Below, piece by piece: positions 40,874-64,000 of a stretch of DNA of 64,000 nt; within the stretch, counting starts at the first letter, position 1, and each line of letters starts with the position of its first letter. Made by a program: the position numbers and the translations under genes. The DNA is taken from assembly GCA_013368375.1 (NCBI GenBank), contig JAACJP010000057.1:62001-126000 (forward strand), in the 5' to 3' direction. The notes under the pieces are model-generated. The model was not told the DNA's origin. It made no database searches and worked only from the letters and a program-made list of their open reading frames with translations. Source of the stretch: Tricholomella constricta (lineage: Eukaryota > Basidiomycota > Agaricomycetes > Agaricales > Lyophyllaceae).

Positions 40874-42853
40874 CTACTCGATGCGACGACGCTTGGAGGG
40901 ACCCGCACTGGAAGAAGAACCGCCCTCACGATCACCCCCCACCTCCCCAACCAACCCTATCTCCAGGGGACGCATCGACGCAATGTCCTGCTCGTCGTCG
41001 GCGATCAACTGAGACTGAGATACGAACTCCGCCAAGGCACCTTCGCGGGTAAGAGAAGGGCGATGAAGAGCAAGGAAATGCTCGAACGCGGGGAACGGCG
41101 ACTCGGGATCGACGGGGGGGCGGAACAGCTCCAGGAGCGAGTGCCGCTCAAGAATCTTGTGGGCGCCATCGATGATACTTCGGACTGGCGACGCCTCCAA
41201 CTCGACGAGGGCACGACGCAAAGCACCATCCGCGATATACATATCGGACGCGAAGGCGGTACGCGCAAGGTCGAGGGCTACGAAAAGTCTTAGAAACAAG
41301 AAGGAGAAAATGAAGGGAATCGAAACTCACCGTCAACGCGAGTGCGGAGGTCCAAGGCATGACCACGCCAATGATCCCTAACCTCCTGAAGGTGGACAAC
41401 GTGCCCCTGCAAACCAGCAACCTCATCCTGAAGAACCGACACCTCCATCCGAAGATCCTCAACCTCCGCGTCACGATCGACGTCTACGACCTCCGAAGTC
41501 TGCGCCTGCAGATGAAGGAAACGCTCACGTTCATCGGTGAAGTCGGCCAATACGCCACGAAGATGGGACTTGGCACGCTGACCCTCGACCCGGAGAAGCT
41601 CGACTTGAACAGAGAGGGCCTGCGCGCGCGCGACCTCCTGGTCATAGAGGCGTTGAAGACGGAGGTACTCCTCAGACGAGGGAGGGGAGGGAACCGGAGC
41701 AGCAGGGGGGGTCGAAATCAACATGGCGGGGGGGGAAGAGGGCAAAACGGGTGAAGAAGAGCCTGAGGAGGATGACCCTTTTAAAAAGAGAGGCTCCGAA
41801 GGGCCGGCGATGGGGGAATCCGGAGACTCGGTGCGCACAATGGGCCCAGAACGACGAACGGGGACAAGCGAAACCGAACTATCGCGGGAGGAGGAGGGAG
41901 AAGGGCCAGGGATAGGCGAAGAGCGCACCTCCTGAACGGACAAGCGCGCACCCCTATGGCCAACAGGCACAGACTTTCGACCCTGGCCTCGCGTACCGCG
42001 AAAAAAGGCGCGAGGCGGGGGAGCACAAGGAGGAGGAACAGCACCGGACCCTTCAGGGGATGTGGAAACAACGGGAAGAGGAGGGGGGAGCGGTAAACGC
42101 AAGGCGCGACGGATGCTGGTAAAGGACATCGCAACGCCAGTGCGAGAGAAAGCAAAACCTTCCGCACGAGAGCGCAACCACGCCAAGGGAATCCCCAACT
42201 GCCTAGCGGCCACTTCTAGGCCATGCTCCAACGAAAGCGAACACAGGGAGTGCGCCGCATGGCAGTCGACACAGGGCAGGGTCCCGCGAAGACGGACCTC
42301 CTAAAATCGACAGGACAGCTGATGCTCCCGACAACGATCACACTAACGAAGACCCCAAAATGGAATCAACAATCGATCGCAGAAAAAGGGCAACACTTAC
42401 CAGTGCATGCGTCTCACACCACGCCAAGGAAGGGGGAACCCGCACAGCGGTACGCAAGATCTCCGCCAACAGCTCATCCGTCAAAAGGGACCCCCAGGAC
42501 AACGAGGTCGCCGCCGGATGTGACACAGGATCGCTGGCCGGTTCGAACTCAACCTCTGGAGTGGAGGAACGAGGACGCCGGATCTGTCGAGATCGAACCG
42601 GCAGACGGATGACCAGACGATGATCGGGAATTGAGGGAGGTGCGGGAGAAGATTCGGGGACCGCCCCGACACTCCCATCGACAAGTGTGACGATCCCAGG
42701 AAGAGAGGACGTCGGGGAAACGGGTCGGGGTACGCCAAGGAACGCCACACGCGCCCGATCTTCGACGGACAGATGCGCCAACTCGGAATCGCGCAAAATC
42801 GTGCTAGGGTCAACGGAGGCGGGGGCCGCGATATCGGGATTGAAGGACGACAT
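40874..42853 (-). pseudogene. Antisense Zn2Cys6-like gene in B1, one stop
   Basis: Opposite strand to pol, between the integrase ORF and the 3' LTR. Exons 42853-42401, 42342-41331 and 41277-40874 total 1869 nt, in frame, with GT-AG introns of 58 and 53 nt at the same positions and phases as in B2. Exon 2 starts CDRCREHQLSCRF and then has TAG at 42301-42303 where B2 has CAG, followed by TLPCVDCHAAHSLCS. The stop falls between the third and fourth cysteine of the cluster, so this copy would make a 164-residue fragment. The remainder (coiled coil EVARAQALSVQVELLRVEG, C-terminus PSKRRRIE) is intact. Confidence 0.8.
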
Positions 42854-44046: not shown

Positions 44047-44486
44047 TGTTAGGGGAACTCCCTTTCACGCCCTCCGACGCTCATGCGATCACTCCCGACT
44101 GTTCGCGATCCTGACCCCTGACGCTCCGACCCAAGCGTCGGTGTATACACTTACACACTTCCTGTCTTTTCCCATCTCTCCCTGCGCGCGTCCGACGCCG
44201 ATCCCGACCTCCCGACGTCGGCTGCCCCAACTCGTGCCTGTACCCTGAGCCACGAGGATCGGACAGCGTCGGGAACGTGTCCATACACGCGCCCAGACCA
44301 TTCCTTGATTATTATGTACAGTACTCGTATATAGTCGGCCTACTGGCATTGGGGATCCTTCGTCTATTCTCTTCGGATTCCCCTCTGCCAGGTAAGCCCC
44401 TCTTTACATTCCTTACTGTACTTAATATAACTTCGGATTCCCCTCTGCCAGTATGACTCAGCTCTGCTCGTGAGGTCGCCCTAACA
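44047..44486 (+). repeat. 3' LTR of element A
   Basis: 440 bp. Matches the 5' LTR apart from substitutions and a 9-bp deletion in the ACCCGACATCCCGACG stretch. Divergence from the 5' LTR is clearly higher than within the B1 or B2 LTR pairs, in line with A being older than B1. Confidence 0.95.
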
Positions 44487-47876: not shown

Positions 47877-48246
47877 TGTCACGACCGCCCCTAACAACCA
47901 CCCCTAAAATCACATCCCACTACGCTTTCCCACGCCTACCCACTGTATATAACATGACACCACTTCTTTCCAGACTCTTCACCTCGATATTACCATTTGT
48001 TACGACTAGTTCCCGTTCTCGTTTCTTATTCTCTCTTACTCTCTCGGTTTACTCAGCTCCGCAATTGTATCACTTGTGCTCATTCGTTCGAATAAGCTCC
48101 GGTGAACATCCTCGTCAACGCTCACGACCTCCGATTACCCTATCGGAGCCCGTCTTCCTTGACGACGTCAGGCCTGTCCGCTTCGGTGGTCTCGGAATAA
48201 CTCCGCAACCAGCGTGCTACGCAAGGTCCTAACATAATATCGAGGT
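47877..48246 (+). repeat. 5' LTR and PBS of B2
   Basis: LTR 47877-48234 (358 bp) with TATATAA at 47946-47952 and ACCTCGATATTA at 47981-47992. The PBS TAATATCGAGGT at 48235-48246 is its exact reverse complement, as in B1. Confidence 0.93.
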
Positions 48247-48263
48247 CTCCCCACCCACCGGAC

Positions 48264-51200
48264 ATGCCCTCGACGATAGTGGAGCCCAACACCACAGTCC
48301 GCTATCAAAACTTCGAAGGTCCCTCTTTCACACAAAGAAGACCTACCACCTTTCGAAACCTCCCCTGCCTCAACAGGACACATGATGCAAGGGACCTTCG
48401 GAACCAACAGGTCCAGGCTGGAACACAACATTTTCCAACCAGGCCAACACGAGGGGGACTTTTCCTCAGCCAGTCAGGACCCTCGACGACCCCTACCCCG
48501 GACCCCCTCAAACGTATTCAACCCGTCCTACCAACTCGCCACCCCCAACTATCCCCCCTTACCACCATCCGCAACGGCCTCCGGACCTCCGCCTTCAAGT
48601 AACCAGACTCCCGGGTCATACTACGAAAGGTTGAGGCACCCGGAGATGTTCCAGAGGAGGGATAGGGCTCGGGAGGAGGGACAGGGACACTTCGCTCGTC
48701 AACAAAACCCCTTCCTACACGGTTCAGACCACGAAAGGATACTCTACGAGCTCCGCATGACGCGGGAAGAGTTTTCGCGACAAGCGCACGAGCTCCTAGT
48801 CGAAACCATGGGGATGGATCATCAACCCCGAACACCGGAACAATGGGCCAACCTCGTGTTGTCGACCATACAACTGCACGAAGCCCATTGATTACCCCCA
48901 CAACTGACGGTGTTGCTACAAATGGGGGGAAACGAAAGAAGGTTACGCGCCCTGGCTGGAGAAATCCAGACGTCCAACGAGGGAAGAAGATTCTCCAACC
49001 CCCAAAGCGCGGGACGTTCCTTCCACATGCCAATTCAGGAGCCCATTCCCTCCAGAATTGAAACTAGATTCGAAGAACCTCCACGAGCGACAAGCACTGT
49101 CAATACGCAGACAGCTTCGGCTCTACTCAGGAGGATGAACCAAGGGAACGCACCCCCCAGCCAAGAAGGGTTCGAACCCACCGTCACACCAGGGACAGAC
49201 GCTCGAAGAGCTCCGACGTTCGGATTCTGGGGAGCCCAAAATTTGCAAAGGATCCCTGAAGAGAACCCCTCTTTCGAAGGACCATTCTCCAGGCCAAACT
49301 CGGGTTTTCAAGGCCCACAAAGGACCTCCGCAAGGGAAGAAGGAGCTCCTCAGAGGGAACCCGAGAATATTCCCCTACCTCTGTCGGAACAAGGAATCCC
49401 AACGCCGCTGTCGTACGCTCATAGCTACGAATTACGTGAAGAAAACCGAGAAGAAGGAGGAGCACCCCCAAGGACACGAGAAGACTGGCGCCAAACACCA
49501 CCTCACCTGGCGAATCAGAACAGGAGGTCACTGCAAGGCCCACGCCCAATCTCCCCAAGAGAACGCCGTGGAATCGGAGCGGACCCCGGCCCCGGTCAAA
49601 ACGTAAACATCCTCGACGGAAGGCAAGGGACCCAACAACAATTCCCCCAGTTCGAACAATACAGAACTGGCTACAACCCCGGACCAGCCCCACCCATACC
49701 CGGCGGACGACCGAACCCCCAGTACAACGGACCACCTCCACAGCCCCAACCACCTCCGGGATCTTCGGGACCACCTACCCCGAGAGGAACTCAATGGGGA
49801 AACGGCCCCGGAGGACCAGGAGGGGGAGGAGGAGGTTATTGGGGAAACGGCCCCGGAGGAACAGGAGGTCCTGGAGGAGGGGGAGGTCACGGAGGATACG
49901 GACCACCACAAGGACCAGGAGTGTTAGGGGAACTCCCTTTCGCGCCCTCCGACGCTCACCGATCGTCCCCCCGCTCATGCGATCGCTCCCCCGACCGTTC
50001 GCGATCCCGACCCCCGACGCTCTGACCCAAGCGTCGGTGTATATACTTACACACTTCCTGTCGTTCCCATCTCTCCCTGCGCGCGCCCGACGCCGATCCC
50101 GACCACCCGACATCCCGACGTCGGCTGTCCCAACTCGTGCCCGTACCCTGAGCCACGAGGATCGGACAGCGTCGGGAACGTGTCCATACATGCGCCGCAG
50201 ACCATTCCTTGATTATTATGTACAGTACTCGTATATAGTCGGCCCACTGGCATTGGGGATCCTTAGTCTATTCTCTTCGGATTCCCCTCTGCCAGGTAAG
50301 CCCCTCTTTACATTCCTCACTGTACTTAATATAACTTCGGATTCCCCTCTGCCAGTACGACTTAGCTCTGCTCGTGAGGTCGCCCTAACAAGGAGGCCCG
50401 GGAGGCCCCGGAGGTCCCGGACGGGGAGGAGGAGGCCACGGAGGAGGAGGAGGAGGAGGCCCACCCGGAAATCCGGGAGGAGGCCAATTCGCAAACCCTC
50501 AATGACCCCCACCTCCACCACAACAATTCTTAGGCCCAAATCAAAACCTGACCCTGGAACAGTACCGACACCTCCTAAACCTGGAATCGAAAATCGACAT
50601 CAGGAAACCGGACCCCTTCACTGGAAAAGAACCGAGGAGATGGAAGACCTTCGTCACGGAATGCCTAGTAATGTTTCAAGCCAAGGCGATTACCTACGAA
50701 CAGGACCACCTGAAAGTATCATTCGCGAGCTCCTACTTAAAGGACGGAGCCATGGACTACTTCCGCCTGCAACTCACGTACAACCCGCAACACCCAATGT
50801 TCACGAACTGGGAAGGGTTCGTATACGAAGTGGAATCACGCTTTGGCATACCGAACTCCAGGGTGGAAGCCGAGAATAACATCTCACGACTGAAAATGAA
50901 GGAATGGGAAAAGTTCACAGCTTTCATCATCAAGTTCGAACAGGAAGCATACGAAACAGGCTGGAACTGGGTAGCGCTACAATTCACGCTGCGAAAAGCG
51001 CTCCCCCAACGAATCCTCAACGTCCTAGCCATCGCACCAAGCCCTGAAACCTACGAAGGTTACCGAGATCTGATCACTCAAATCGACCGGAGGTACTGGG
51101 AACATCGTATAGAAAATCCAGAGTCCTACAAACCCCTCTGGGCGAATAACACGAATACCTCCAACACCTCCGCACGACCTCCGATTGGACCTTCGGCCGG

Positions 51201-51594
51201 ACCCGCAAACCGCACGATGCCGCAAACGACTCAAGGGAGCAGGAATGCACGCTTGAACGCCGAAAGTCACGACCAGGACCTGGACACAGGTAAGGAAGGT
51301 AAGGCGCAAGACCAGGAAATCGCATGGGACGACGAGGAGGCCCTACAAGCCAACAACTTCGGGTTCAAGAAGTCAACACGCCCCTGGGTGAAGATCGACG
51401 AAGACGTAAAACAACAACGAATTCGAGACAAGGCCTGCATCCTATGCGGTGATCTGGAACACTGGATGCGCGACTGCCCAACAGCAAACACCATGGGCAG
51501 AGCCACCTATCTCATCGGCGACGACATCTTCGAATTCCATCACAAGACAGAAGAGGGAAACGCGGGGGCGATTCAGGACTTGCCCGGGCTCTGA
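48264..51594 (+). pseudogene. gag of B2, broken
   Basis: Aligns with B1 gag throughout. Defects relative to B1: a 5-nt deletion near 48342-48347 shifting frame; TGA at 48889 where B1 has CGA; the solo LTR insertion at 49922-50390; and TGA near 50503 where B1 has CGA. The zinc knuckle CILCGDLEHWMRDC and the downstream end (GAIQDLPGL, TGA 51592) are retained. It cannot make a full Gag. Confidence 0.9.
49922..50390 (+). mobile_element. Solo LTR of family A inside B2 gag
   Basis: 469 bp, TGTTAGGGGAACTCC..GCCCTAACA, with TSD AGGAG at 49917-49921 and 50391-50395. It carries a short extra duplicated segment (CGATCGTCCCCCCGCTCATG region near 49960-49990) compared with the 449-bp LTR at 27328. It shows that family A was active after family B existed. 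Confidence 0.95.
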
Positions 51595-54500
51595 ATCACG
51601 AAGATCTAAAACCGGACCTTGACACTAAACTACGCGCAACGGCATTATCGACAACGGACACCCGCACAGTAACTCTCTCCTCCCATTCGTCACTGGCATT
51701 TCTAATACACCTCACGCCAAACGGAGGAGGAGAAGACCCCGAAAACACGCTCATCGACAGCGGAGCTACCGACAACTTCATGGACTCCGACATGGCGACA
51801 TCACGCGGGCTCCACCTTGAGGAGCTCAATCCCCCAATAAACCTTTGCCTATTTGATGGGGAACCCTCCGCATCAGGCAAAATCACACACTATACCACCA
51901 ACGACGTCAAATTCAGTGACGGCACCACTCAGAGGATAAGATTCCTCTTAACAAGACTCCACGAGACAGCGACGATAGTGCTGGGACTATCATGGCTGAA
52001 GGAGGTCAATCCCCGCATAAATTGGAAAGACCTCTGCATCACGCTACGACGGGGGTCAAACGGCAAAATTGAAGGATCACTACCGGACCTCCGAAGGAAA
52101 AAGGAAGTTGTCCCAACGACAACAGGCACAGGAAATCAACGCTTACCCTCGCGGTCAGCTCGCTCCTTCACGATCGAAGTACAGTTAGAAGGATCCTCAA
52201 CGCAACTACGGGCACTTATCGATAGTGGAGCGGCGGGAAATTTCATAGCACAATCCTCGTGTACGAAACCGGAACCTCTCGCCAACCCCATGACCTTACA
52301 ACTGTTCGACAGAAACCCCAGCGGAGGTGGAGCCATTTCACACCATAGTCCCGAAACAATCAAACTTGAGAACGGACTAGAGTATAAGGTCGACCTCCTC
52401 ATAACACAGTTACACCCGGCCACGCCACTAGTGCTCGGATTACCTTGGTTACAGGAAGCAAATCCGGACATCGACTGGCGGGAAATGTCCATGACCATGG
52501 AACAAGGGGCAGGACTAGCCGCGATATCGCTTTCCCAGAAGACGCAATGGAGAACCGTGACCCTTGAGGAGGAGGAAGACGTCGAAGCTCCGAAACCAGC
52601 CAACCCCCTTTCGGAAAAACAACCCCTCCTCAGGGACCTCCTGGACGACGAAAACGATCAGAACGACACCTCCAGCGATAACATGAAGGAGGAAGACACC
52701 CGCCCAAACACCAACGAACCTCAGGAGGAAGCACCAACACCAACAACAGAGTCGCCAGAGGAGGTAACGGGACGGAAACGCACCCGAAAACCACCTCCAC
52801 CGAACTATTTCCCTCCAAACGTTCCGAGGTCCAAATTCAAACCCCACCCCAAACGGAAATCCGCAACGTCCCCAACGACAGAAACACGGGAAGAAGATGA
52901 AGCCAACCCGGAAACGGAGGTCGAAGACGAAACCGGAGAGGGAGAAGAGGATGTCGAAACACAAAACATCCGCCTGATCGGAGCGGCGCCATTCGCGAAC
53001 CTCATCAGGGACGGAGCCACAGCGTTCCAACTACACATCTCCCCCACCGAACAGGAAGAACACCTCCATGCCAATAACACCTCCGACGACGAACCCAAGC
53101 AACCAAAGACAGAAAAGGAAATCTTTGAGGAAGTCGTACCTCCGGAGTACAGGGACTTCGAAGACGTATTCTCAGCGGGCGAAGCGAAAACCATCCCCCC
53201 ACACCGACCTTACGATCACACAGTGGAACTCGACGAAAACACTACCCCTCCCTTCGGAAAGATATACAACATGTCCGAACTGGAGTTGAAAGCATTGAAG
53301 GATTACATCGACGAGATGCTCGGAAAAGGGTTCATCCGACCTTCGAGTTCGTCAGCGGGAGCTCCGGTACTGTTCGCAAAGAAGAAGGACGGATCACTCC
53401 GGCTATGCGTGGACTATAGAGGATTAAATCGGATCACCAAGAAGAACCGTTACCCTCTACCTCTGATCGGAGACCTCATAGACCGACTTCAAAAAGCGAA
53501 AGTATACTCGAAGATCGACCTCCGAGTGGGCTACAACAACGTCCGCATAGCTCCGGGACACGAATGGAAGACAGCCTTCCGCACTCGTTATGGACTTTTC
53601 GAATACCTGGTAATGCCTTTTGGCATGACAAACTCACCCGCGACATTCCAACACTTCATGAACGACATCTTCCACGACATGAACGACGTGTTCGTAGTGA
53701 TCTATCTCGACGACATTCTGGTTTTCTCGGAGACCTTAGAGGAACATCACGGACACGTTCGGAAGGTCCTCGAGAGGCTCTGGAAACACAACCTTCATGC
53801 GAAACCGGAGAAATGCACGTTTCACACTACGGAGATCGAATACCTAGGCGTCATCGTATCCCCCGGCGGAGTAAAGATGGACCCAGGAAAAGTCGACGCG
53901 ATTCGGAAGTGGCCTAGGCCGACGAAGGTCAAGGAACTCCAATCTTTCCTAGGCTTTGCAAACTTCTATCGGCGGTTTATCGACAATTACTCGGGCATAA
54001 CGAAGAGGTTAAACAAACTCACGCAAAAGGACACAATCTGGAAATGGGATTCCGAATGCGAAGGAGTCTTCGAGCTATTGAAGAAAGCATTCTCCTCCGC
54101 ACCCATCCTACGACACTTCGATCCTCAACTACCGGTGATATTAGAGTGCGACGCTTCCGACTTCGCCATAGCGGGGATCATCTCCCAAGTTGATCCCCGT
54201 ATCATCTCCCAAGTTCTCAGCCCTCAAAAACCGATGGAACGAACGATGGAAGAAGTCCCCCCGATTCGAAAAATACCGGAAATACAAAGACTGCTTCCCG
54301 TCCGCTGGCTTTCGACGAGCGACGAAGAATATCACCAGACGACAGCACAGCTTGCTCATCCAGCTGCGAACGGGTCACGCCCCCCTCAACCAACACCTGC
54401 ACAGGATGAAAGTTGTCGACGAGCCGAAATGCCCGCACTGCCCAACGGAAGATGAAACAATTCGACACTACTTATATCAATGCCGGGAATATCGATACGC

Positions 54501-55166
54501 CAGGACCGATCTCATCACGAGGCTCGGAAGAGACGCGCACGTCGCGGCTATTCTGTACGGGACGAAGAGAGGCATCAAGAGCCTCCTACAATATGTGGAA
54601 GACACGGCAAGAGTGAAAAACACTTTCGGTGATGTTACCCCATCTAATATCGATGACGATGAGGATGATGACCCCACTCAGCCAGACTTCGATTACGATT
54701 GGGAGGGGATTGGAGAGATAGAGGACTAGAACGATCACAAACACCTATCGCTCGAAATCGGGGGGGCAGTAAAAAGGGCAGGGTATAAGGGAGGGACGGA
54801 GTCCCGGAATGGGAGCCACTTGGCTTGCCAGGGAATTACTTACTTACTTCTCTCCTGCAGCAGCCGTTCCGACGGCCCGCCTCCTCGTGCACATCCCCCT
54901 CGGGGGACGAGCACTTTGTTGAAGACACCCACGGACGCGCGAACACTCGGCGGATCGGAAACGGTACCCTGCACACGTCAGGGAGAGGCGTCTAAAACAG
55001 GGACTCAGGTCTCCGGGCCACCGGGGGGCGACGAGCACGGCCCGTCGGTGCGCGCATTCGCAATCTCAGCAGGCGCAGGAATATGGGGGCAAGGGGCCTT
55101 CTTTTATTACTGTACTAAGCATGTAAAGACCAACATGGGCTAACGCCCAGCGGTCGATAAACAAGG

Positions 55167-55200
<34 letters not shown>

Positions 55201-55520
55201 CCCAAGTTGACGAGACATCACAAGACTTACGTCCTGTCGCCTTCTACGCGAGAACTATGATAGACGCGGAGCTCAACTACGACATCTATGACAAGGAGCT
55301 CCTAGCAATCGTGGAAGCGTTTAAGCAATGGAGGGCCTACCTAGAGGGATCTCCCCACCGCATTCAAGTGTACTCCGACCACAACAACCTACAGTATTTC
55401 TCTACGACCAAGCAACTCAGTCGCAGACAAGCACGATGGTCGGAATGCCTGGCGAACTTCGACTTCCAAATAAATTACAGACCTGGAAGATTAGGAGCGA
55501 AACCAGATGCCCTCACGTGA
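51595..55520 (+). pseudogene. pol of B2 (PR-PR-RT-RH), cut by LINE
   Basis: Same layout as B1: two retropepsins (LIDSGATDNF then VLGLSWL; LIDSGAAGNF then VLGLPWL), acidic linker, RT with YLDDILVFS, and RNase H start (LECDASDFAIAGIISQ). The frame is interrupted at 54194 by a LINE fragment and resumes at 55197 ([15 protein letters not shown]) to DALT and TGA at 55518-55520, the same stop as in B1. About 52.1-54.17 kb is nearly identical to B1. Confidence 0.9.
54194..55196 (+). mobile_element. 5'-truncated LINE with poly(A) tail
   Basis: 1003 bp insertion flanked by ATCTCCCAAGTTGA (54180-54193 and 55197-55210), ending in a run of about 26-27 A. It encodes the C-terminal end of a LINE polyprotein: LRTGHAPLNQHLHRM, then CPHC, ETIRHYLYQCREY, and an Asp-rich tail with stop TAG near 54727, then an about 440 bp 3' UTR. 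The first bases contain an extra copy of ATCATCTCCCAAGTT (54201-54215) and TGATCCCC, filler-like sequence at the 5' junction. Confidence 0.9.
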
Positions 55521-57077
55521 CGGCCAGACGTGTATCCCAAGGAAGGGTTCGAACAGGATCATAATTCGTTCAACAACCGCATCATCATACCCCCCGAACG
55601 ATTGAACGCGGCCCTAATACTGAACAAGGAGCTCCTACTAAACAACATCCGGAACACACCCCGAGACGAATTCTTCGAGAGACACGCACCCAAACCCGGA
55701 GATGAGACCTCCGCGTTCTCCCTATCCGATGATGGCAAACTACTCCTTCGCGACGGAAGAATCTACGTACCGGACCATTCCAGATTACGCCTCGACATCC
55801 TACAGCAACATCATGACCACAAACTGTGCGGACATCCAGGGATCAGAAAGACCACACAACTCATCATGAGGACTTATTTCTGGCCCGGATTAAGGAAGGA
55901 GGTCACTCGATACGTCCGAAGCTGTTATACCTGTAAAAGAGCGAAGGTCCCACGCCATAGCCCATACGGACTATTGAAACCACTCCAGATTGGGCGAAGG
56001 GCGTGGGCCTCCATATCCATGGACCACATTGTAGAACTACCGGAATCAGATGGGTACGACGCCATACTGGTCGTAGTATGCCGCCTCACCAAGCAAGGCA
56101 TCTTCATACCCTGTCACACAACGGACACAGCAAAGGAACTTGCTCAACTATTCTTGGAACATGTCTTCTCCAAGCACGGACTGCCCGACAACATCATATC
56201 GGACAGGGGCACCCTCTTCGTCTCCCGTTTCTGGAGCTCGCTGTGTAAAGCCCTGGACATTAAATCGAACCTTTCAACCGCGTATCACCCGGAGACCGAC
56301 AGCCAGACGGAACGAGTAAATCAGACACTGGAACAGTACCTCTGGATATACGTGAACTACCTCCAGACCAACTGGCGAACACAGCTCCCACTGGCGGAAT
56401 TCACGTATAACAATACGACCCATTCGACCACGGGAGTCTCTCCTTTCTTTGCGAACAAGGGTTATCACCCCCGCCTGACAATCTCTATAAAAGACATACC
56501 GGCAAAGGAAGCCCAGGAGGTAGCCGTAGACCTCCGGACCCTCCAGGACTACCTCCGCCAAGAGATAGAGATCGCAAACGAAGCCTACAAACGATTCGCG
56601 GACAAGAAACGGGACCCTACACCAGATTGGGCCGTAGGAACGGAGGTATGGCTCGATTGCCGGAACATCAAAACGAAACGCCCCTCCAAAAAGCTGGACC
56701 ACCGGAGACTGGGCCCCTTCAAAATCCTACAGAAGATCTCCAGCCACGCGTATCGACTGGAACTACCTCCGACACTGAAAGGAATTCACAATGTGTTCCA
56801 CGTCAAGTTACTCGAAAAACACGAACACGAGAACTTCCCAGGACGATCAAAGCCACCTCCGCAGACAATCGAAATCGAGGGCGAGGAGCACTACGAAGTA
56901 GAACGAATCCTAGACTCCCGAACACGAGGGAAACACGTGCTCTACTTGGTACGATGGGAAGGATATGGCCCTGAGGACGGCACATGGGAACCAGCAGGAA
57001 ACATAGAGGGAGCAAAAGACATGGCCCTCAAATTCCATCGTCTATTCCCAAGGAAACCACGAGACCCCACAATCTAG
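55521..57077 (+). CDS. Integrase with chromodomain of B2
   Basis: Open from after TGA 55518 to the stop at 57075. HHCC and catalytic Asp/Asp/Glu positions are kept (SMDHIVELPE, IISDRGTLF, TERVNQTLEQY). B1 DGQTER reads DSQTER here, a Gly-to-Ser change next to the catalytic Glu motif. The chromodomain reads HYEVERILDSR, YLVRWEGYG and GTWEPAGNIE. Whether it can be expressed is doubtful given the upstream breaks. Confidence 0.85.
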   Translation, partial: RPDVYPKEGFEQDHNSFNNRIIIPPERLNAALILNKELLLNNIRNTPRDEFFERHAPKPGDETSAFSLSDDGKLLLRDGRIYVPDHSRLRLDILQQHHDHKLCGHPGIRKTTQLIMRTYFWPGLRKEVTRYVRSCYTCKRAKVPRHSPYGLLKPLQIGRRAWASISMDHIVELPESDGYDAILVVVCRLTKQGIFIPCHTTDTAKELAQLFLEHVFSKHGLPDNIISDRGTLFVSRFWSSLCKALDIKSNLSTAYHPETDSQTERVNQTLEQYLWIYVNYLQTNWRTQLPLAEFTYNNTTHSTTGVSPFFANKGYHPRLTISIKDIPAKEAQEVAVDLRTLQDYLRQEIEIANEAYKRFADKKRDPTPDWAVGTEVWLDCRNIKTKRPSKKLDHRRLGPFKILQKISSHAYRLELPPTLKGIHNVFHVKLLEKHEHENFPGRSKPPPQTIEIEGEEHYEVERILDSRTRGKHVLYLVRWEGYGPEDGTWEPAGNIEGAKDMALKFHRLFPRKPRDPTI

Positions 57078-57282
57078 AATCCGACGAAATTCACGCACTT
57101 CACGAAATTTATGAAAAGCCCCTTCAAGAAAACGATTTTTATCACAAAATGTATTTCGAACACCGGGACAACGACACTACAAGAAAAAGAAAACACCAAG
57201 GAAAAAGAATTAACGAACTTCACATGTAAATATTCAACAAAAAGAAAGCAAAGAAGGTCCTAGACACCACCAAGAAGACCGA

Positions 57283-59297
57283 CTAGTCAATGCGACGACG
57301 TTTGGACGGACCCGCGCTCAGAGTGGAACCCTCCCCGCGACCAAACCCGACCTCCCCATCCAACTCCCCCTCCAACGGACGCATCGAAGCAATATCCTGC
57401 TCATCGTCGGCGATTAATTGGGATCGAGACACGAAGTCCGCAAGGGCGTCTTCACGAGTGAGCGAAGTGCGGTGCAAAGCAAGGAAATGATCGAACGCAG
57501 GGAAGAGTACCTCGGGGTCGACGGGAGGGGGGAAGAGCTCGAGGAGCGAATGCCGCTCCAGGACCTTATGGGCAGCGTCGACAATATCCCGGGCCGGCGA
57601 CACCTCCATCTCGACAAGGGCGCGACGCAAGGCACCGTCGGCGACAAATATGTCCGACGCAAAGGTGGTACGCGCAAGTTCAAGGGCTATGACAAACTCA
57701 GACAACGAGAGAGGAACGACACGAATCAAAAAACTCACCGTCGACACGAACGCGAAGGTCCAAGGCATGACCACGCCAATGGTCCCGGACCTCCTGAAGA
57801 TGGACGACGTGCCCCTGAAGACCCGCTACCTCATCCTCGAGACCCGCAACCTGCATCCGCAGATCCTCAACCTCAGCGTCACGATCGACGTCGACGACCT
57901 CCACGGCACGCGATGTCTGCGCCTGCAGATGAAGAAGGCGTTCACGCTCGTCGGCGAGTTGGGATAGGACTCCGTGAAAACGACCTTTGTGGCGTTCACC
58001 CTCGACCTCGAGACGCTCGACCTGGGAGGAAAGGGCCTGAGCACGCACGACCTCCTGGTCGTAGAGACGCTGGAGACGGAGGAACGCCTCCGGCGAAGGA
58101 ACGGAAGGAGCAGGGGTAGCGAGGGGGGACGACAGCAACATGGAGGGAGGGCAGGACTGCAGGGCTGGCGATGGCGAAACTGAATTGGACGAGCTCTTTA
58201 AAAAGAGAGGTTCGTCAGGGGTCGTATCGGGGGACACCGCACGCGTAGCGCCCGACAAAGGAGGAACCAAAAGAGGAGAAGTCGGCGCCGCGGGAGAAAG
58301 GGAGGGGGAACGAGGCAAAGGACGCCCCCTAGACCCCTGCAGACCAGACCGCATACCCCCACGACCAACAGACGCTAATTTTCGACCCTGTCCTCGGGTA
58401 CCACGAAAGATAGCACACGCAGGCGGAGCACGGCTAAGGCGAACGGCGGCCTCATCCCCAGAAGAAGAGGAAAGGGAAAGGACCTCCGTAGAAGGCACGG
58501 AGACAAGAGAGGAGTCGAAGGAGGGGGACGCCACACGCAAGATACGACAGATAGCGGAAAAGGACATAGCGACGCCGGTGCGGGAGAAGGAAAAACCTTC
58601 GGTACGGGTCCGCAACCACGCCAAGGGGATCGCCAATTCCCTAGATGCCACCTCTAGACCATGGTCAAGCGACAGGGAGCACAAGGCGTGCGCCGCGCGG
58701 CAATCGACGCAGGGCAAGGTCCCACGAAGACGAACCTCCTGAAAACGGCAAGACTGATGACGACCCCGACACCGATCACACTAGCAAAGAGCCCAAAAAG
58801 AGAATCAGCGGAAGGATCCAGCCCGATCACAAACAAAAGACGATACTTACCGGTCCGTGCGCCTCACACCAAGCCAAAGAGGGAGGAACCCGCACAGCGG
58901 TACGCATCACCTCCGCCAGAACCGCATCTGTCAAGAGGGGCCCCCAAGACAATGAAGTCGCCGCCGGACGCGACACGGGATCACTGGAAGATTCGAAAAG
59001 GGCCTCCGGAGTGGTCGAACGGGGGCGACGGATCTGCTGAGCCCGGACCGGAAGACGAATAACCAGTCGAGGGAAGGAGGGCGTAGGAGGAACGGGGGAA
59101 GAACTGGGGACGGCCCCGACGCTTCCATCTGGGAGAACGGCGATCCCAGGGAGAGAAGGAGTAGGGGAGACGGGTCGGGGCATGTCCAAGAACGCGACGC
59201 GCGCCCGATCTTCTTCGGATAAACGCGCCAACTCTTGATCGCGCAAAATCTGGGCAGCGGAGGCAGACGGTGCAAAATCTCGATTGAAGACTGACAT
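57283..59297 (-). CDS. Antisense Zn2Cys6-like coiled-coil protein of B2, intact
   Basis: Accessory gene of the retrotransposon on the strand opposite pol. Exons 59297-58851, 58780-57739 and 57686-57283 (447, 1042 and 404 nt) sum to 1893 nt, giving 630 residues without a stop. Introns are 70 and 52 nt, GTAAGT..CTAG and GTGAGT..ATAG. Exon 2 begins with six cysteines at about 150, 153, 160, 173, 176 and 183 (CDRCRGRHQSC, then CVDC, then C), spacing C-x2-C-x6-C-x12-C-x2-C-x6-C as in fungal binuclear zinc clusters. A Ser/Pro-rich region follows, then a coiled coil (LQRLYDQEVVRAQALSSQ, VAGLEDEVAGLQGHVVHLQE), a helical C-terminal part and the basic end PSKRRRID. Role unknown; DNA binding or chromatin targeting is inference. 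Confidence 0.8.
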
Positions 59298-59407
59298 GGA
59301 GATGATAAAAAGAAATTAGAGGAGAAAAAACAACCAGAGCTCTCCTCTTTTTCGATCTCCGAGATCCTCCAAATCACCCACATGGACCCACAATCGACCT
59401 AGACCCG

Positions 59408-59424
59408 CACGTGCCCCTCACGTG
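59408..59424. promoter_or_regulatory. Twin CACGTG motif upstream of the B2 antisense gene
   Basis: CACGTG at 59408 and 59419, same 11-bp spacing as in B1, followed by the shared ACCGCGCGCGACCC. Lies between the antisense start and the 3' LTR, so it could drive the antisense gene. Confidence 0.5.
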
Positions 59425-59506
59425 ACCGCGCGCGACCCAGAAAGAAAAACAACCGCCACACTATCCGTATTCGAACATCTCCCCGCGTCTCAGTGGCTCG
59501 ACGCTT

Positions 59507-59877
59507 GAGGAGGGGGTAATGTCACGACCGCCCCTAACAACCACCCCTAAAATCACATCCCACTACGCTTTCCCACGCCTACCCACTGTATATAACATGA
59601 CACCACTTCTTTCCAGACTCTTCACCTCGATATTACCATTTGTTACGACTAGTTCCCGTTCTCGTTTCTTATTCTCTCTTACTCTCTCGGTTTACTCAGC
59701 TCCGCAATTGTATCACTTGTGCTCATTCGTTCGAATAAGCTCCGGTGAACATCCTCGTCAACGCTCACGACCTCCGATTACCCTATCGGAGCCCGTCTTC
59801 CTTGACGACGTCAGGCCTGTCCGCTTCGGTGGTCTCGGAATAACTCCGCAACCAGCGTGCTACGCAAGGTCCTAACA
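59507..59877 (+). repeat. Polypurine tract and 3' LTR of B2
   Basis: PPT GAGGAGGGGG at 59507-59516. LTR 59520-59877 (358 bp), apparently identical to the 5' LTR, then TSD CGCCC. Confidence 0.93.
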
Positions 59878-60068
59878 CGCCCGTGCTTCGCACTAAATAA
59901 CTTCTCGCTTTATCTAGCTTACCTTCGGTACCTTGATAGTACGCTCGGTCTCCGTACCGTTATCTTATTCCTTTGCTAAATTTTTACTTCAGTTCCTAGT
60001 ACTACTTCCTACTCCTTTCGTTCGATCCACTCTCGGTTCCTTCGACATCTTAAATCACTCAATTTGGC

Positions 60069-61472
60069 ATGTCTGATGGCGCACACCTTCCTGGGCCGCC
60101 GCGTGAGCCCACGTTGGCTGACGAACTCGCTGCTGCCGAACGCACTCGTCTTCGAGGAGAAAGGTTCGAGAGCCTTGTTGACGACGCTCTCAACGGCCGT
60201 CTTACCGTCTCGGAATTCGTTGGTAAACTCATTGCCGAAGGAGCCACACTGGAAGAAGGGAAGGATTACGCCGACTTGCTCGCTCAGCGCTACGCTCAAC
60301 GTGGCGCCCCAGTCGCTGGTGTTGAAGGAGCAGGCGGAGATGCCGTTGAGCGGGAACCTACTCCCGATTTGCCTGACGACGAGCTGGAGACGTTCAGAGA
60401 GCAGCGCGCTCACCTCGCGGAACAAAATCATCTCGCTGCTGAAGAAGCACGCCGCAACGCTGTCGATGCTGCTGCCTGGGCGGTCTTACAAGCAAAACTT
60501 GGTCGACTCTCGCTGGGTGCAGATACCCAACGGAGTAATGCTGGGTTCAGTCCGGGTTTCTTTGCGAACCTTCTCGGACTTGATCCCATCCAGGAACCCC
60601 TCATCCCTGCGTCAGTACTGGCCGTCGCCCCTCACTTGGGCGATCTCGCTGCGTCGGTTGGCGACCCCCATCTCGAATCCACCTGGAAGCTGCGGTGCGC
60701 TTACGCAGGGGAGAAGGTCCTCGACGCTATCGTTAATGTCATGCAGACCATGCAAGTGCCTGATCCCATTCCTCGCCCAGTTTGGCGGACCATGGCTCAG
60801 GATGGGTACGTTGATTTTGAGAAATTGTACGCCTCGATGGAGCGTGGCTACGACCACGGCGACGAGCAAAGCTCCCTCCCGGGGGGGTTCGCCCTTGTTA
60901 GGAAAGACCATATCTCAGCACGCCGCCCTATTCGTTCAGAAGCTGAGTGGACTCGAGTTTTTGACACTTGGGCCGCGGGCGTGGGCATGTTGTACATCCA
61001 CCGTGCTCAAGAGTTGGGTACCTATCGCAAAATCGTCATCGACCTCTTTCGCCTGTCTGCTAACCCGGTCGTCGCCATCCAATTCGACCTTGACGCTCGC
61101 GACCGCTATGCGAAACTCCCTTTCCGGCTTGACGATCGGGTGGAGCTGCAGACTCCCCTCTTCGCTCAGATCTTCCGGGGTTCGGCGTCGTCGTCCGCTT
61201 CTGGGAAACGCAAGGCGTCTTCGTCCTCAGGCGGTGGTGGAGCTGGCACGCCGTCTCCGAAACGCCGCGACGTTGCTTGCCAGAATTGGAACCTCGGGCT
61301 TTGCGAGGAGACCCCGTGCGCGTTTGGGCGTCGCCACGGCTCTTGCAGCGAATGCGGGGGGAAGCATAGGGCCAAAGACGAACCAGGATGTCTTATCCTC
61401 CTCCAAGCTCGACGATCTGTCGGAACAGGAAGAGGTGGCAGCTCGGGTGGCGCTGGCTCTGGGAGGGCCTAA
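60069..61472 (+). CDS. Gag-like ORF1 with C3H-type zinc motif
   Basis: 467 residues, start MSDGAHLPGPP. The N-terminal third is charged and helical (EFVGKLIAEGATLEEGKDYADLL). The central region (PASVLAVAP.., RRPIRSEAEWTRVFDTW, FRLSANPVVAIQFD) resembles the nucleocapsid-like protein of fungal DIRS-type elements. Near the C-terminus is a Ser/Gly-rich linker and a Cys/His motif (ACQNWNLGLCEETPCAFG, then CSECGGKH, then C) likely to bind RNA. It ends in the region where ORF2 is already open in another frame. Confidence 0.8.
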   Translation: MSDGAHLPGPPREPTLADELAAAERTRLRGERFESLVDDALNGRLTVSEFVGKLIAEGATLEEGKDYADLLAQRYAQRGAPVAGVEGAGGDAVEREPTPDLPDDELETFREQRAHLAEQNHLAAEEARRNAVDAAAWAVLQAKLGRLSLGADTQRSNAGFSPGFFANLLGLDPIQEPLIPASVLAVAPHLGDLAASVGDPHLESTWKLRCAYAGEKVLDAIVNVMQTMQVPDPIPRPVWRTMAQDGYVDFEKLYASMERGYDHGDEQSSLPGGFALVRKDHISARRPIRSEAEWTRVFDTWAAGVGMLYIHRAQELGTYRKIVIDLFRLSANPVVAIQFDLDARDRYAKLPFRLDDRVELQTPLFAQIFRGSASSSASGKRKASSSSGGGGAGTPSPKRRDVACQNWNLGLCEETPCAFGRRHGSCSECGGKHRAKDEPGCLILLQARRSVGTGRGGSSGGAGSGRA

Positions 61473-63327
61473 ACGCTTGAGCCAGAAAAGAAGCGCCGAG
61501 TCCGCGCAGTTGGAGGCGCCGCGCTTTCGTAGAGGTTTCGTTTGGTCTGACTCTCATTCATACTCTCCCGACAATATATCTCCTTCTGCCCTGTACACTG
61601 AGACTGCGCCTCCCCTTCCCTCGCCACCATCTCATCTCGTTAATGATCCATTGATACAAGCGTCCCTTCACTCCATGCGCCACCATGTAAAAGTCGACAC
61701 CCCATTTGACGTCGATAAGTTCGAAGCCATGCTTCATGACCACCCGAACAGGCCATTCGTTGACTCCGTGATGTCAGGCCTTCGTAATGGTTTCTGGCCC
61801 TTCGACGAAGGCGACTGGAAGATTGAACTGGAGGAGTTCGAGGGAAACTACTCGACTGACGACTGCGACCTCTCAGCGATCCGAGCATTTCGCGACAAGG
61901 AGTGTGGCGCAGGTCGCTGGTCCTCGGCTCTCCCTTCCTCCGAGCTTCTTCACGGAATGAAGCTATCCCCTATGTTCGTAGTCTGGCAGCGGGGGAAGGG
62001 GCGTGTGGTAACCGACCACAGCGGCTCTGGTATCAACGACGGCATACCCAAATCCGAAGGGAAGGTCCGTTACGACGACCTTCACGTTTTCGGTGATGTG
62101 CTCCGCGACGCCCGGTCCTCGGCTGGCCCACGGCGTATCATCGTCTGGAAGTCGGACGTAGCCTCGGCTTTCCTCAATCTCCCAGCTCATCCCATATGGC
62201 AGCTCCACCAGGTCGTTTCCGTCGATGGACGCCTCCACATCGTCCGGCGTCTCGTGTTCGGCAATAGGGCTTCGCCCCGTTGCTGGTGCGCCGTCTCAGG
62301 TCTGTTGTGTTGGTTGGGAGTTCGTAAGCTTCGCATCATTGGTTTGCTCGTCTATATGGACGACTTCTTTTGTTGGGACTACGCCGGCAACCTGGTCTGG
62401 TTCCATGGTAAACTGCGGCCTAAGAAACAAGTTCAACTTCTTCTCCTGTGGGACGCTATTGGCTGTCCTTGGGAGGACAAGAAGCAAGAGCACGGCGAGG
62501 TCCTCAAAGTCATCGGTTTTTGGGTGGACCCCAATCAGGGTTCGTTCTCGCTAGCTCCCGACACCGTCATCGATATCATTGAGAAGATCGACAACTTTCT
62601 CCTGGCCCAGTGGCGCCACCCTCCCCTTCGCGACTGGCAGCGCCTGGGTGGACACTTGAACTGGCTTCTTAACGTCCTGCCTTGGGGGCGCCCCGCCCTC
62701 ACAGAGCTGTATAGGAAGACGGCGGGGAAGTCGCTTCCCTCGCGTGGAATCCCTCTCAACGCCGCCGTGTGCGCTGACCTGTCTTGGTTGAAATCGATTA
62801 TCCCTTCCGCCATTGGTGTCTGCTTCATCGACGACGGCTGTTGGCGCGTCAGCGACGCCGATATGGTCGTTTGGACGGACACCAGTACCTCGAGGGGCCT
62901 GGGGTTCGTCTTCAGTAATCAAGGGTTTTGTTACGGTTTGCAGCCGTCTTCGTCGAAGTCCCCCATCGATATCTTCTTCCTCGAGCTGGTTGCCATCTTG
63001 TCGGCCATCTCACACGTCGCCTCGTTGCCGGCTCCGCCTCGCAGGCTCCTCATCTGGACGGACAGTCTTAACTGCGTCGGCGCGTTGAACGCGCTACGTG
63101 TTTCTGAGTCTCTTCATAATGGGCCTCTGCTCGCTATCGCGGGCATCATCCTACAGACGAATATCGACATGCGGGTGTGTCATATTCCGGGCGAGGAAAA
63201 TGTTCGCGCCGATCTGTTGTCTCGACTCATGCTCAACGAGTATCGTCGCAAATTCCCCGCCGACCGCGTCCGCTCGTTCGCTCCTCCACGGGAGCTTCTG
63301 CCGGCGCGATGGAAGGGGTGCTTTTAA
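60076..63327 (+). CDS. Reverse transcriptase and RNase H ORF2
   Basis: The recognisable protein starts near 61400. RT motifs: VVWQRGKGRVVTDHSGSG, WKSDVASAFLNLP, LVFGNRASPRCW, and the palm motif LLVYMDDFF near 62355. RNase H-like part: VVWTDTSTSRGLGFV, FLELVAILSAI, IWTDSLNCVGALNAL, ADLLSRL. The stop is at 63325. The frame is open all the way from 60064, overlapping ORF1, and its first ATG (60076) is 7 nt after the ORF1 ATG, so the true N-terminus is uncertain: leaky scanning, frameshift, or a start within the overlap. Confidence 0.85.
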   Translation: MAHTFLGRRVSPRWLTNSLLPNALVFEEKGSRALLTTLSTAVLPSRNSLVNSLPKEPHWKKGRITPTCSLSATLNVAPQSLVLKEQAEMPLSGNLLPICLTTSWRRSESSALTSRNKIISLLKKHAATLSMLLPGRSYKQNLVDSRWVQIPNGVMLGSVRVSLRTFSDLIPSRNPSSLRQYWPSPLTWAISLRRLATPISNPPGSCGALTQGRRSSTLSLMSCRPCKCLIPFLAQFGGPWLRMGTLILRNCTPRWSVATTTATSKAPSRGGSPLLGKTISQHAALFVQKLSGLEFLTLGPRAWACCTSTVLKSWVPIAKSSSTSFACLLTRSSPSNSTLTLATAMRNSLSGLTIGWSCRLPSSLRSSGVRRRRPLLGNARRLRPQAVVELARRLRNAATLLARIGTSGFARRPRARLGVATALAANAGGSIGPKTNQDVLSSSKLDDLSEQEEVAARVALALGGPKRLSQKRSAESAQLEAPRFRRGFVWSDSHSYSPDNISPSALYTETAPPLPSPPSHLVNDPLIQASLHSMRHHVKVDTPFDVDKFEAMLHDHPNRPFVDSVMSGLRNGFWPFDEGDWKIELEEFEGNYSTDDCDLSAIRAFRDKECGAGRWSSALPSSELLHGMKLSPMFVVWQRGKGRVVTDHSGSGINDGIPKSEGKVRYDDLHVFGDVLRDARSSAGPRRIIVWKSDVASAFLNLPAHPIWQLHQVVSVDGRLHIVRRLVFGNRASPRCWCAVSGLLCWLGVRKLRIIGLLVYMDDFFCWDYAGNLVWFHGKLRPKKQVQLLLLWDAIGCPWEDKKQEHGEVLKVIGFWVDPNQGSFSLAPDTVIDIIEKIDNFLLAQWRHPPLRDWQRLGGHLNWLLNVLPWGRPALTELYRKTAGKSLPSRGIPLNAAVCADLSWLKSIIPSAIGVCFIDDGCWRVSDADMVVWTDTSTSRGLGFVFSNQGFCYGLQPSSSKSPIDIFFLELVAILSAISHVASLPAPPRRLLIWTDSLNCVGALNALRVSESLHNGPLLAIAGIILQTNIDMRVCHIPGEENVRADLLSRLMLNEYRRKFPADRVRSFAPPRELLPARWKGCF

Positions 63328-64000
63328 GCGCCCTGGGCGGGTTGGGCGCTCCGCGCTCGGCTCGCCCACCCGTGGACCTGGCGGACTTAGACAAGCACGC
63401 GTTGCACCTCCAGGTTCACGCGCTGGAGAAGTCCACGTCTCTCGGGTACGCCACCGGCGCCCGTGACTATGTGCGCTTCTGTCTCAGCGCGAATCTCCCC
63501 CTCGATCCTACTCCCCTCACGCTCTCTCGTTATGTGGCCTTCTCGTCGCGCCACATCGCATCCGGACCCAAGTATCTTACCGGGGTTCGCCATTTTCTTC
63601 GGGATATCTACCCGGACTTCGACACCAATCGCGCCCACCCTCTCGTTCAGACAACTATCCGCGGCTCGAAGAAGATTCGTGCGGATCGGGTGAAGCGCAA
63701 GCTCCCGCTGCGTGTCGCGCATCTCTCTCAGTTCCTGGCGATCGCGCGGGAGACAGGGTCATACGACGACCTCCTTTTTGCTGTTATCATCTCCTGCTGC
63801 TTTTATGCCTGTCATCGCTCGGGGGAGCTCGTGCAGAAGAACGGCTCTGCCCTGTTTGATTGGCGTAAGGTCATTAAACGGACCTCCTTGCAGTTTTCGG
63901 AGGGCCACGCGCAGTATTTCCTGCCTTATCACAAGTCCGACCCGTTTTACCGGGGCACCGACATCCTTTTTACCCCTCAGGAGGTCTTGGACCCCGTGGC
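63309..64000 (+). CDS. Tyrosine recombinase ORF3 (partial)
   Basis: Starts MEGVLLSALGGLG, overlapping the last 19 bp of ORF2, and is open to the window edge (about 230 residues). N-terminal SAM-like/core-binding region (SLGYATGARDYVRFCLSANLP, YVAFSSRHI), then the catalytic domain with the first Arg box FYACHRSGELV near 63805-63837. The remaining catalytic residues (His-x-x-Arg, Tyr) lie outside the window. Expected to integrate circular cDNA in place of a DDE integrase. Confidence 0.85.
   Translation, partial: MEGVLLSALGGLGAPRSARPPVDLADLDKHALHLQVHALEKSTSLGYATGARDYVRFCLSANLPLDPTPLTLSRYVAFSSRHIASGPKYLTGVRHFLRDIYPDFDTNRAHPLVQTTIRGSKKIRADRVKRKLPLRVAHLSQFLAIARETGSYDDLLFAVIISCCFYACHRSGELVQKNGSALFDWRKVIKRTSLQFSEGHAQYFLPYHKSDPFYRGTDILFTPQEVLDPV

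Follow-up and report, generated by a model that had tools for sequence, protein, structure and literature searches.

An intron-containing antisense gene for a Zn2Cys6-like protein, under purifying selection, in a probably self-priming chromovirus from Tricholomella constricta

The window analyzed here is a 64,000-nucleotide stretch of the agaric Tricholomella constricta (GenBank assembly GCA_013368375.1, contig JAACJP010000057.1, positions 62,001 to 126,000 of the forward strand), and all positions are counted from its first letter. It contains a Ty3/gypsy LTR retrotransposon that carries, on the strand opposite pol, an additional gene with two introns (Table 1), here called the aORF. The LTR pair of this element is identical at 358 of 358 nucleotides and is flanked by a 5-bp duplication (CGCCC), which together indicate a recent insertion. 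A Pfam scan of pol returned RVT_1, an RNase H-like domain, Integrase_H2C2, SH3_Tf2-1 (74.4 bits) and Chromo (51.1 bits). The chromodomain follows the integrase and the primer site is complementary to the predicted 5′ end of the RNA, both of which are characteristic of Tf1-like self-priming elements. The RNA is predicted to begin at 59624 from a TATA-like box 35 nt upstream and from the point at which element types have exchanged sequence (see below).

Several neighboring features deserve mention. An insert of about 1.0 kb in pol (54194–55196) ends in an A-run, is bounded by a duplication of about 14 nt when set against the second element of the window, and looks like a LINE-type retro-insertion; pol of this element is therefore interrupted. 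Another insert, of about 0.47 kb in the gag region (49922–50387), has an end duplication of about 8 nt and a partial repeat at 44294–44486, and is probably a small DNA transposon. Just past the 3′ LTR (60064–64000) lies a long ORF with reverse-transcriptase-like motifs recognizable by eye, followed by a second ORF; Pfam returned a weak RVT_thumb match alone for this region, which is perhaps a tyrosine-recombinase (Ngaro/DIRS-like) element running beyond the window. The second aORF-bearing element of the window (copy A; the element of Table 1 is copy B) shares stretches of 100% identity with copy B in the 5′ region and pol, for example 33424–33723 with 48345–48644, and the regions from the aORF to the LTR are 67–81% alike in 300-nt steps.

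Table 1. Positions of the element, its antisense gene and associated features within the window
Feature	Positions	Strand	Basis
Second window copy of the aORF (copy A, type A), TAG at codon 165	40874–42853	-	
Ty3/gypsy LTR retrotransposon with chromodomain, bearing the aORF	47877–59877	+	LTRs, target duplication, Pfam domains
5′ LTR	47877–48234	+	
Candidate primer site for self-priming, 12 nt able to pair with ACCTCGATATTA (59624–59635, LTR)	48235–48246	+	
pol (protease-like, RT, RNase H, integrase, chromodomain), interrupted by the insert at 54194–55196	51780–57077	+	
aORF exon 3, 404 nt including stop; product ends in SKRRRID	57283–57686	-	
aORF intron 2, 52 nt, GTGAGT...ATAG	57687–57738	-	
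aORF exon 2, 1042 nt	57739–58780	-	
Codes for the greater part of the long predicted helix, a possible coiled coil	57739–58093	-	AlphaFold2 helices, heptad test
Zn2Cys6-like cysteine cluster, residues 150–183	58679–58780	-	invariant cysteines; Zn_clus best match
aORF intron 1, 70 nt, GTAAGT...CTAG	58781–58850	-	
aORF exon 1, 447 nt, residues 1–149	58851–59297	-	
Leader, candidate antisense promoter, from U3 to the aORF start	59298–59519	-	
Polypurine tract GAGGAGGGGG	59507–59516	+	read off the sequence
U3 of the 3′ LTR, sense TATA-like box at 59589	59520–59623	+	
R-U5 of the 3′ LTR; 59624 is the predicted RNA 5′ end and the exchange point between element types	59624–59877	+	

The aORF of copy B occupies 57283–59297 of the minus strand, between the end of pol at 57077 and the start of the 3′ LTR at 59520, and comprises three exons with 630 codons plus a stop. 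The original prediction, of a three-exon gene of about 630 codons antisense to pol, is thereby confirmed in location and structure. Exon lengths (447, 1042 and 404 nt, against 453, 1012 and 404 nt in copy A) differ by exactly the 6, 30 and 0 nt that had been given, and the GT-AG introns do lie at matching positions and phases in the two copies. That both elements carry the gene is right as to structure, but codon 165 of copy A, within the cysteine cluster, reads TAG in frame, and this copy is for that reason not intact; two further copies of its type (L041 and L043) are intact and have Q at this codon.

An alternative acceptor for intron 1 (TTTTCAG/GAGG, 42 nt downstream and in frame) would excise CDRCRGRHQSCRFQ and so render the TAG of copy A harmless. 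It was rejected as the main form given that L041 and L043 have Q, that the 14 codons concerned are themselves constrained (dN/dS 0.20), and that copy A, with two TAGs, stands alone among the 16 matches listed to residues 148–490 of the related protein P0001. Its use in a minor isoform is possible. The first donor is GTATGT instead of GTAAGT in two type D copies (L042 and L046). The sense RNA would read the introns as CT...AC, which should be unspliceable, and this may be why they can persist in the element; two degenerate junction patterns, with as many as two mismatches allowed, matched no spliced copy in the genome. Possession of introns by an antisense gene suggests that a genomic gene was captured. 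The leader upstream of the aORF contains two CACGTG boxes at 59408–59424, present in all seven aligned rows (five types), and the palindrome GATCTCGGAGATC, complete in four of the seven; both may serve as antisense-promoter or target sites.

Across the 44.1 Mb assembly (118 contigs) the aORF family has a minimum of 94 distinct loci, counting fragments, when the lists from a DNA query (at least 42 matches) and a related protein query (at least 101 matches) are merged. An aORF match lies within 4 kb of at least 36 of 40 scored pol matches, among the matches listed, and these counts uphold the view that the antisense gene belongs to the element. Its orientation antisense to gag-pol, its location between pol and the 3′ LTR, its occurrence in most copies (in the proportion just given, among the matches listed) and its conservation at the protein level are those of the aORF-3R class. 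We read 41 copies, starting with those that matched copy B best and going on to examples of other types, thus a non-random sample, and 38 full-length copies were left when three partial ones were dropped. The gene is intact, with an ATG, a single terminal stop and both introns GT-AG, in 22 of the 38; 16 are broken, L034 at a splice site only, and 151 of 152 splice dinucleotides are retained. The copies are not independent events, as L027 and L028 have identical stops. The Zn_clus profile gave 27 matches over the whole genome, counted at any locus. A public gene model, P0002 (T. constricta D9615_009035), joins a piece of Ty1/copia RT to a type-A-like aORF product, and antisense aORFs therefore get annotated as parts of host genes or as chimeras.

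There is strong reason to regard the aORF as a real protein-coding gene. One intact representative of each of five aORF types was compared in all 10 pairs, and in the reading frame of the gene dN/dS is 0.19–0.32 (dS 0.43–0.84, dN 0.10–0.20) with 0 stops. Four other frames have dN/dS of 0.94–2.52 and 9–46 stop positions per pair, and the fifth, a reverse-strand frame that mirrors codon position 3, has 0.29–0.42 and 16–22 stops. Because the low ratio is frame-specific, it goes beyond chance, and a dN/dS near 1, named beforehand as the outcome that would speak against the gene, was seen in none of the 10 pairs. Identity in four pairs is 65–80% in intron 1 and 56–72% in intron 2, against 71–86% in the exons. 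That the aORF is a protein-coding gene under purifying selection is, in our judgment, practically certain. Selection within types is weaker (pN/pS 0.41 among 11 intact B1 copies, and 0.74 between two B2 copies at a very low dS of 0.012), as expected of copies that drift after insertion. By region, in five copies of four types that include the broken copy A, residues 105–225 are best conserved (dN/dS 0.12, 0.20, 0.05 and 0.15 in four successive stretches), followed by the C terminus (0.16 over 130 residues), the helical part (0.25) and the N terminus (0.33 over 104 residues); constraint is loosest in the linker, at 0.51.

The products of the five representatives are 622–635 residues long and contain seven invariant cysteines. 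Six of these have the spacing C-x2-C-x6-C-x12-C-x2-C-x6-C, exactly as read from the window sequence at the outset, and the seventh lies six residues upstream. The Zn2Cys6 motif is C-x2-C-x6-C-x5-12-C-x2-C-x6-8-C, and it (PF00172) is matched in all five representatives. When the cluster segments are isolated, Zn_clus is the best Pfam match for each of the five (E 0.00013 to 0.0042); one exceeds the cut-off of 21 bits and the other four reach 17.6–20. The best stretch in four of the five segments is in the other half-register, with the upstream half aligned to the second half of the profile. Four of four full-length members match Zn_clus at E values up to 5 (best 0.019), one member scoring 10.5 bits. 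The description of the protein as Zn2Cys6-like is therefore only partly sustained: the spacing is exact and Zn_clus ranks first in all five segments, but the Pfam threshold is passed by one segment of five. On spacing and constraint a zinc cluster is likely, and the protein would be expected to bind zinc and DNA.

The remainder of the protein is less sharply defined. The long heptad-like region that had been proposed is clear in three types, in which 8, 2 and 5 of 300 shuffles reach its signal, but weak in two (55 and 28 of 300). An AlphaFold2 model of P0001, built from six sequences, has a mean pLDDT of 42 and leaves the cluster unresolved; predicted helices at 372–431 and 440–518 (about 47–73) are the sole regions that high. 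The basic C-terminus also anticipated is a short KRRR motif, found in all five representatives. No significant relative was returned from the PDB (the best was LEU3, E 7.7), and no fungal transcription-factor middle domain appeared among the Pfam matches listed. Protein searches, which need shared 5-residue words and scored 7,987 candidates (752 in one search), returned two T. constricta proteins only, and with so limited a pool relatives may exist in other organisms. A scan of viral contigs yielded no relative.

The aORF types appear to have a history different from that of the genes alongside. In a comparison with one representative per type (for type A, the window copy in gag-pol and L043 in the aORF), dS between the five types is low in gag and RT (0.03–0.19 over 101–202 codons, and 0.01–0.15 over 803 codons), against 0.43–0.84 in the aORF, so that by appearance the aORF types are of much greater age than their accompanying gag and RT. 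Integrase is a mosaic: over its last 115 codons dS is 0.55–0.66 in 8 of 10 pairs, 0.20 between A and D, and 0 between B1 and B2. Since this end is as diverged as the aORF in 8 of the 10 pairs, the linked block is not always the aORF and U3 only, and in most types the old block extends back into integrase.

On the other side of the aORF, a strict pairing with the whole LTR fails, as aORFs that are 99% identical occur with LTRs 88% alike; for B1 and B2 the pairing is restored when the LTR is split at 59624 into U3 and R-U5. At 20 loci (16 B1, 4 B2; copy B is L009) the leader (99–100%) and U3 (97–100%) match the aORF type without exception, and all four B2 loci have a common leader and U3 that differ from those of all 16 B1 loci. 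These three parts are thus inherited as a block in the two types. The R-U5 of the B1 loci is that of copy B in four, D-like in nine, of type A in one and poorly fitting in two (L021 and L023); L025, a B2 locus, has the R-U5 of copy B, and the remaining three B2 loci have another. Copy B and L012 have 0 differences in leader and U3 and 46 in R-U5, the first at 59638, and copy B and L025 have 87 differences up to 59623 and 6 beyond. The same step at 59624 is seen between L012 and D and between L020 and copy A. Exchange of R-U5 between types thus falls at the predicted RNA 5′ end, where transfer of first-strand DNA to a second RNA molecule would place it. Under such transfer the aORF, leader and U3 stay together unless a template switch falls between them, and their linkage accordingly also follows from the mechanics of reverse transcription, with no need of selection. 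Types A, B3 and D contribute one row each to this comparison, and in the single rows of D and B3 the U3 is 89% and the leader 76% alike; this has no clean fit to pairing and may reflect a template switch, a hint that U3 can be exchanged too.

Some features of the aORF have counterparts elsewhere. Fungal Zn2Cys6 factors of the Gal4 and LEU3 type consist of the cluster, a linker, a helical region and a basic motif, and the aORF resembles them in cysteine spacing and general layout. Their cluster usually lies near the N-terminus, whereas that of the aORF begins at residue 150 and has a borderline profile score. HTLV-1 HBZ is a spliced bZIP regulator, and it and other retroviral antisense genes are like the aORF, by description, in being antisense protein genes, but HTLV-1 is a virus of people and HBZ has another DNA-binding motif. 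Zhao et al. reportedly described an antisense gene, brtn, in the element Boty of Botrytis cinerea and Sclerotinia sclerotiorum in 2011.

Antisense aORFs have a published background (PMC7264820, PMC11963269, PMC8365987, PMC4227169, PMC5987419). The fungal LTR element Boty has a chromodomain in its gag-pol gene (PMC4227169) and carries one more gene, in antisense, in the interval from pol to the 3′ LTR (PMC7264820). The element described here agrees with Boty in this layout, but has a basidiomycete instead of an ascomycete host. Plant LTR elements with antisense aORFs, among them Grande (GENE23), RIRE2, Retand (TRP28) and PvRetro13 (PMC7264820 and PMC11963269), agree with it in position, orientation, presence in many copies and suspected DNA binding. 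Unlike the present element, Retand is not a chromovirus, and TRP28 was not among the Pfam matches listed for the aORF protein. GENE23 is described as nuclear, with transcription driven by an upstream promoter of its own, HTLV as having an antisense promoter inside its 3′ LTR, and antisense genes of LTR elements as lacking a known function (PMC7264820). The word ‘intron’ is absent from the main texts of PMC7264820 and PMC11963269, and ‘antisense’ from those of three papers on fungal LTR and transposable elements (PMC3411680, PMC2864245, PMC3248453). No basidiomycete element with an antisense gene appeared in the literature titles and abstract openings searched, a set that lies mostly outside subscription papers.

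A mechanism can be proposed from these observations. The element would be a Tf1-like self-priming chromovirus whose accessory gene is read toward pol, with transcription starting in the leader/U3 part of the 3′ LTR, and whose transcript would be spliced twice to encode a protein of about 630 residues. This protein, with its Zn2Cys6-like cluster, loose linker, long and probably dimerizing helical region and KRRR tail, is probably nuclear, for which, as for a separate antisense promoter, Grande GENE23 offers a published parallel, and most likely would bind and regulate the adjacent U3 and leader, and through them the sense promoter of the element, its own gene, or both. The aORF is well placed to regulate U3, because its start is 222 nt away and the two are rarely separated, and their co-travel with the leader (20 of 20 loci, two types) mildly favors a promoter-linked role. 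To the mechanism as a whole, a promoter-linked DNA-binding regulator encoded antisense in a self-priming chromovirus, we would give slightly less than even chances.

A chromodomain is a targeting module and pol already has one, and between B1 and B2, which differ in the aORF, dS is 0 over the final 115 codons of integrase; it thus seems somewhat unlikely that the protein is real but serves integration targeting, nuclear import or chromatin tethering instead of regulating transcription. Such a role would nonetheless suit the KRRR tail of all five representatives, the long helices predicted with low confidence, the last 115 integrase codons, which are as diverged as the aORF in 8 of 10 pairs and so often co-travel with it, and the nuclear location or SMC domain reported for plant aORFs (PMC7264820). 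A protein that counters host silencing, whether RNAi, quelling or methylation, would fit both retention in high-copy families and the split into types. Against it stands the weak argument that the sequence has no pointer to RNA binding or to a silencing component, and no family or relative with a known function, and we consider it decidedly unlikely.

The two readings that dispense with a protein fare worse. An effect of the antisense RNA itself, through dsRNA or interference with sense RNA and with the ORF incidental, has been suggested for the antisense RNAs that LTR elements produce (PMC7264820), but is strongly disfavored here by frame-specific purifying selection with 0 stops across five types and by retention of the frame in 22 of the 38 full-length copies, and is very improbable. 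The sense strand does hold ORFs of 233 and 200 aa at the same place, as might be expected if the aORF were open by chance or arose as a side effect of a sense-strand gene. However, the three sense-strand frames have 9–34 stop positions per pair, two of them with dN/dS of 0.94–2.52 and the third, which mirrors codon position 3, with 16–22 stops; on frame-specific dN/dS and stop counts this explanation is excluded and almost certainly wrong.

Antisense accessory genes at this position have precedents in plant elements and in the Botrytis element Boty. Four features seem to be new, none of them reported in the titles and abstract openings surveyed: a basidiomycete as host, a pair of conserved introns, the Zn2Cys6-like cluster and inheritance as a block with U3. 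The aORF of T. constricta is also unusually legible, with dozens of copies, five diverged types and close linkage to the adjacent promoter, and its introns make any antisense transcript recognizable. The R-U5 exchanges are a record of intermolecular first-strand transfer, or template switching, in a self-priming element. The legibility of this aORF turns the question of what antisense aORFs do into a testable pairing of protein type with U3 type. An extension of the proposed regulatory mechanism, which we think unlikely, is that an interchangeable gag-pol backbone carries a diversified control cassette of aORF, leader and U3, of which there are five types or more. Each type would encode, in antisense and through a spliced transcript, a zinc-cluster protein able to recognize the promoter that accompanies it, and the types would resemble compatibility groups. 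If this were true, each protein would control the elements that carry its own U3, and selection for differing control would maintain old, diverged types on a young, shared backbone.
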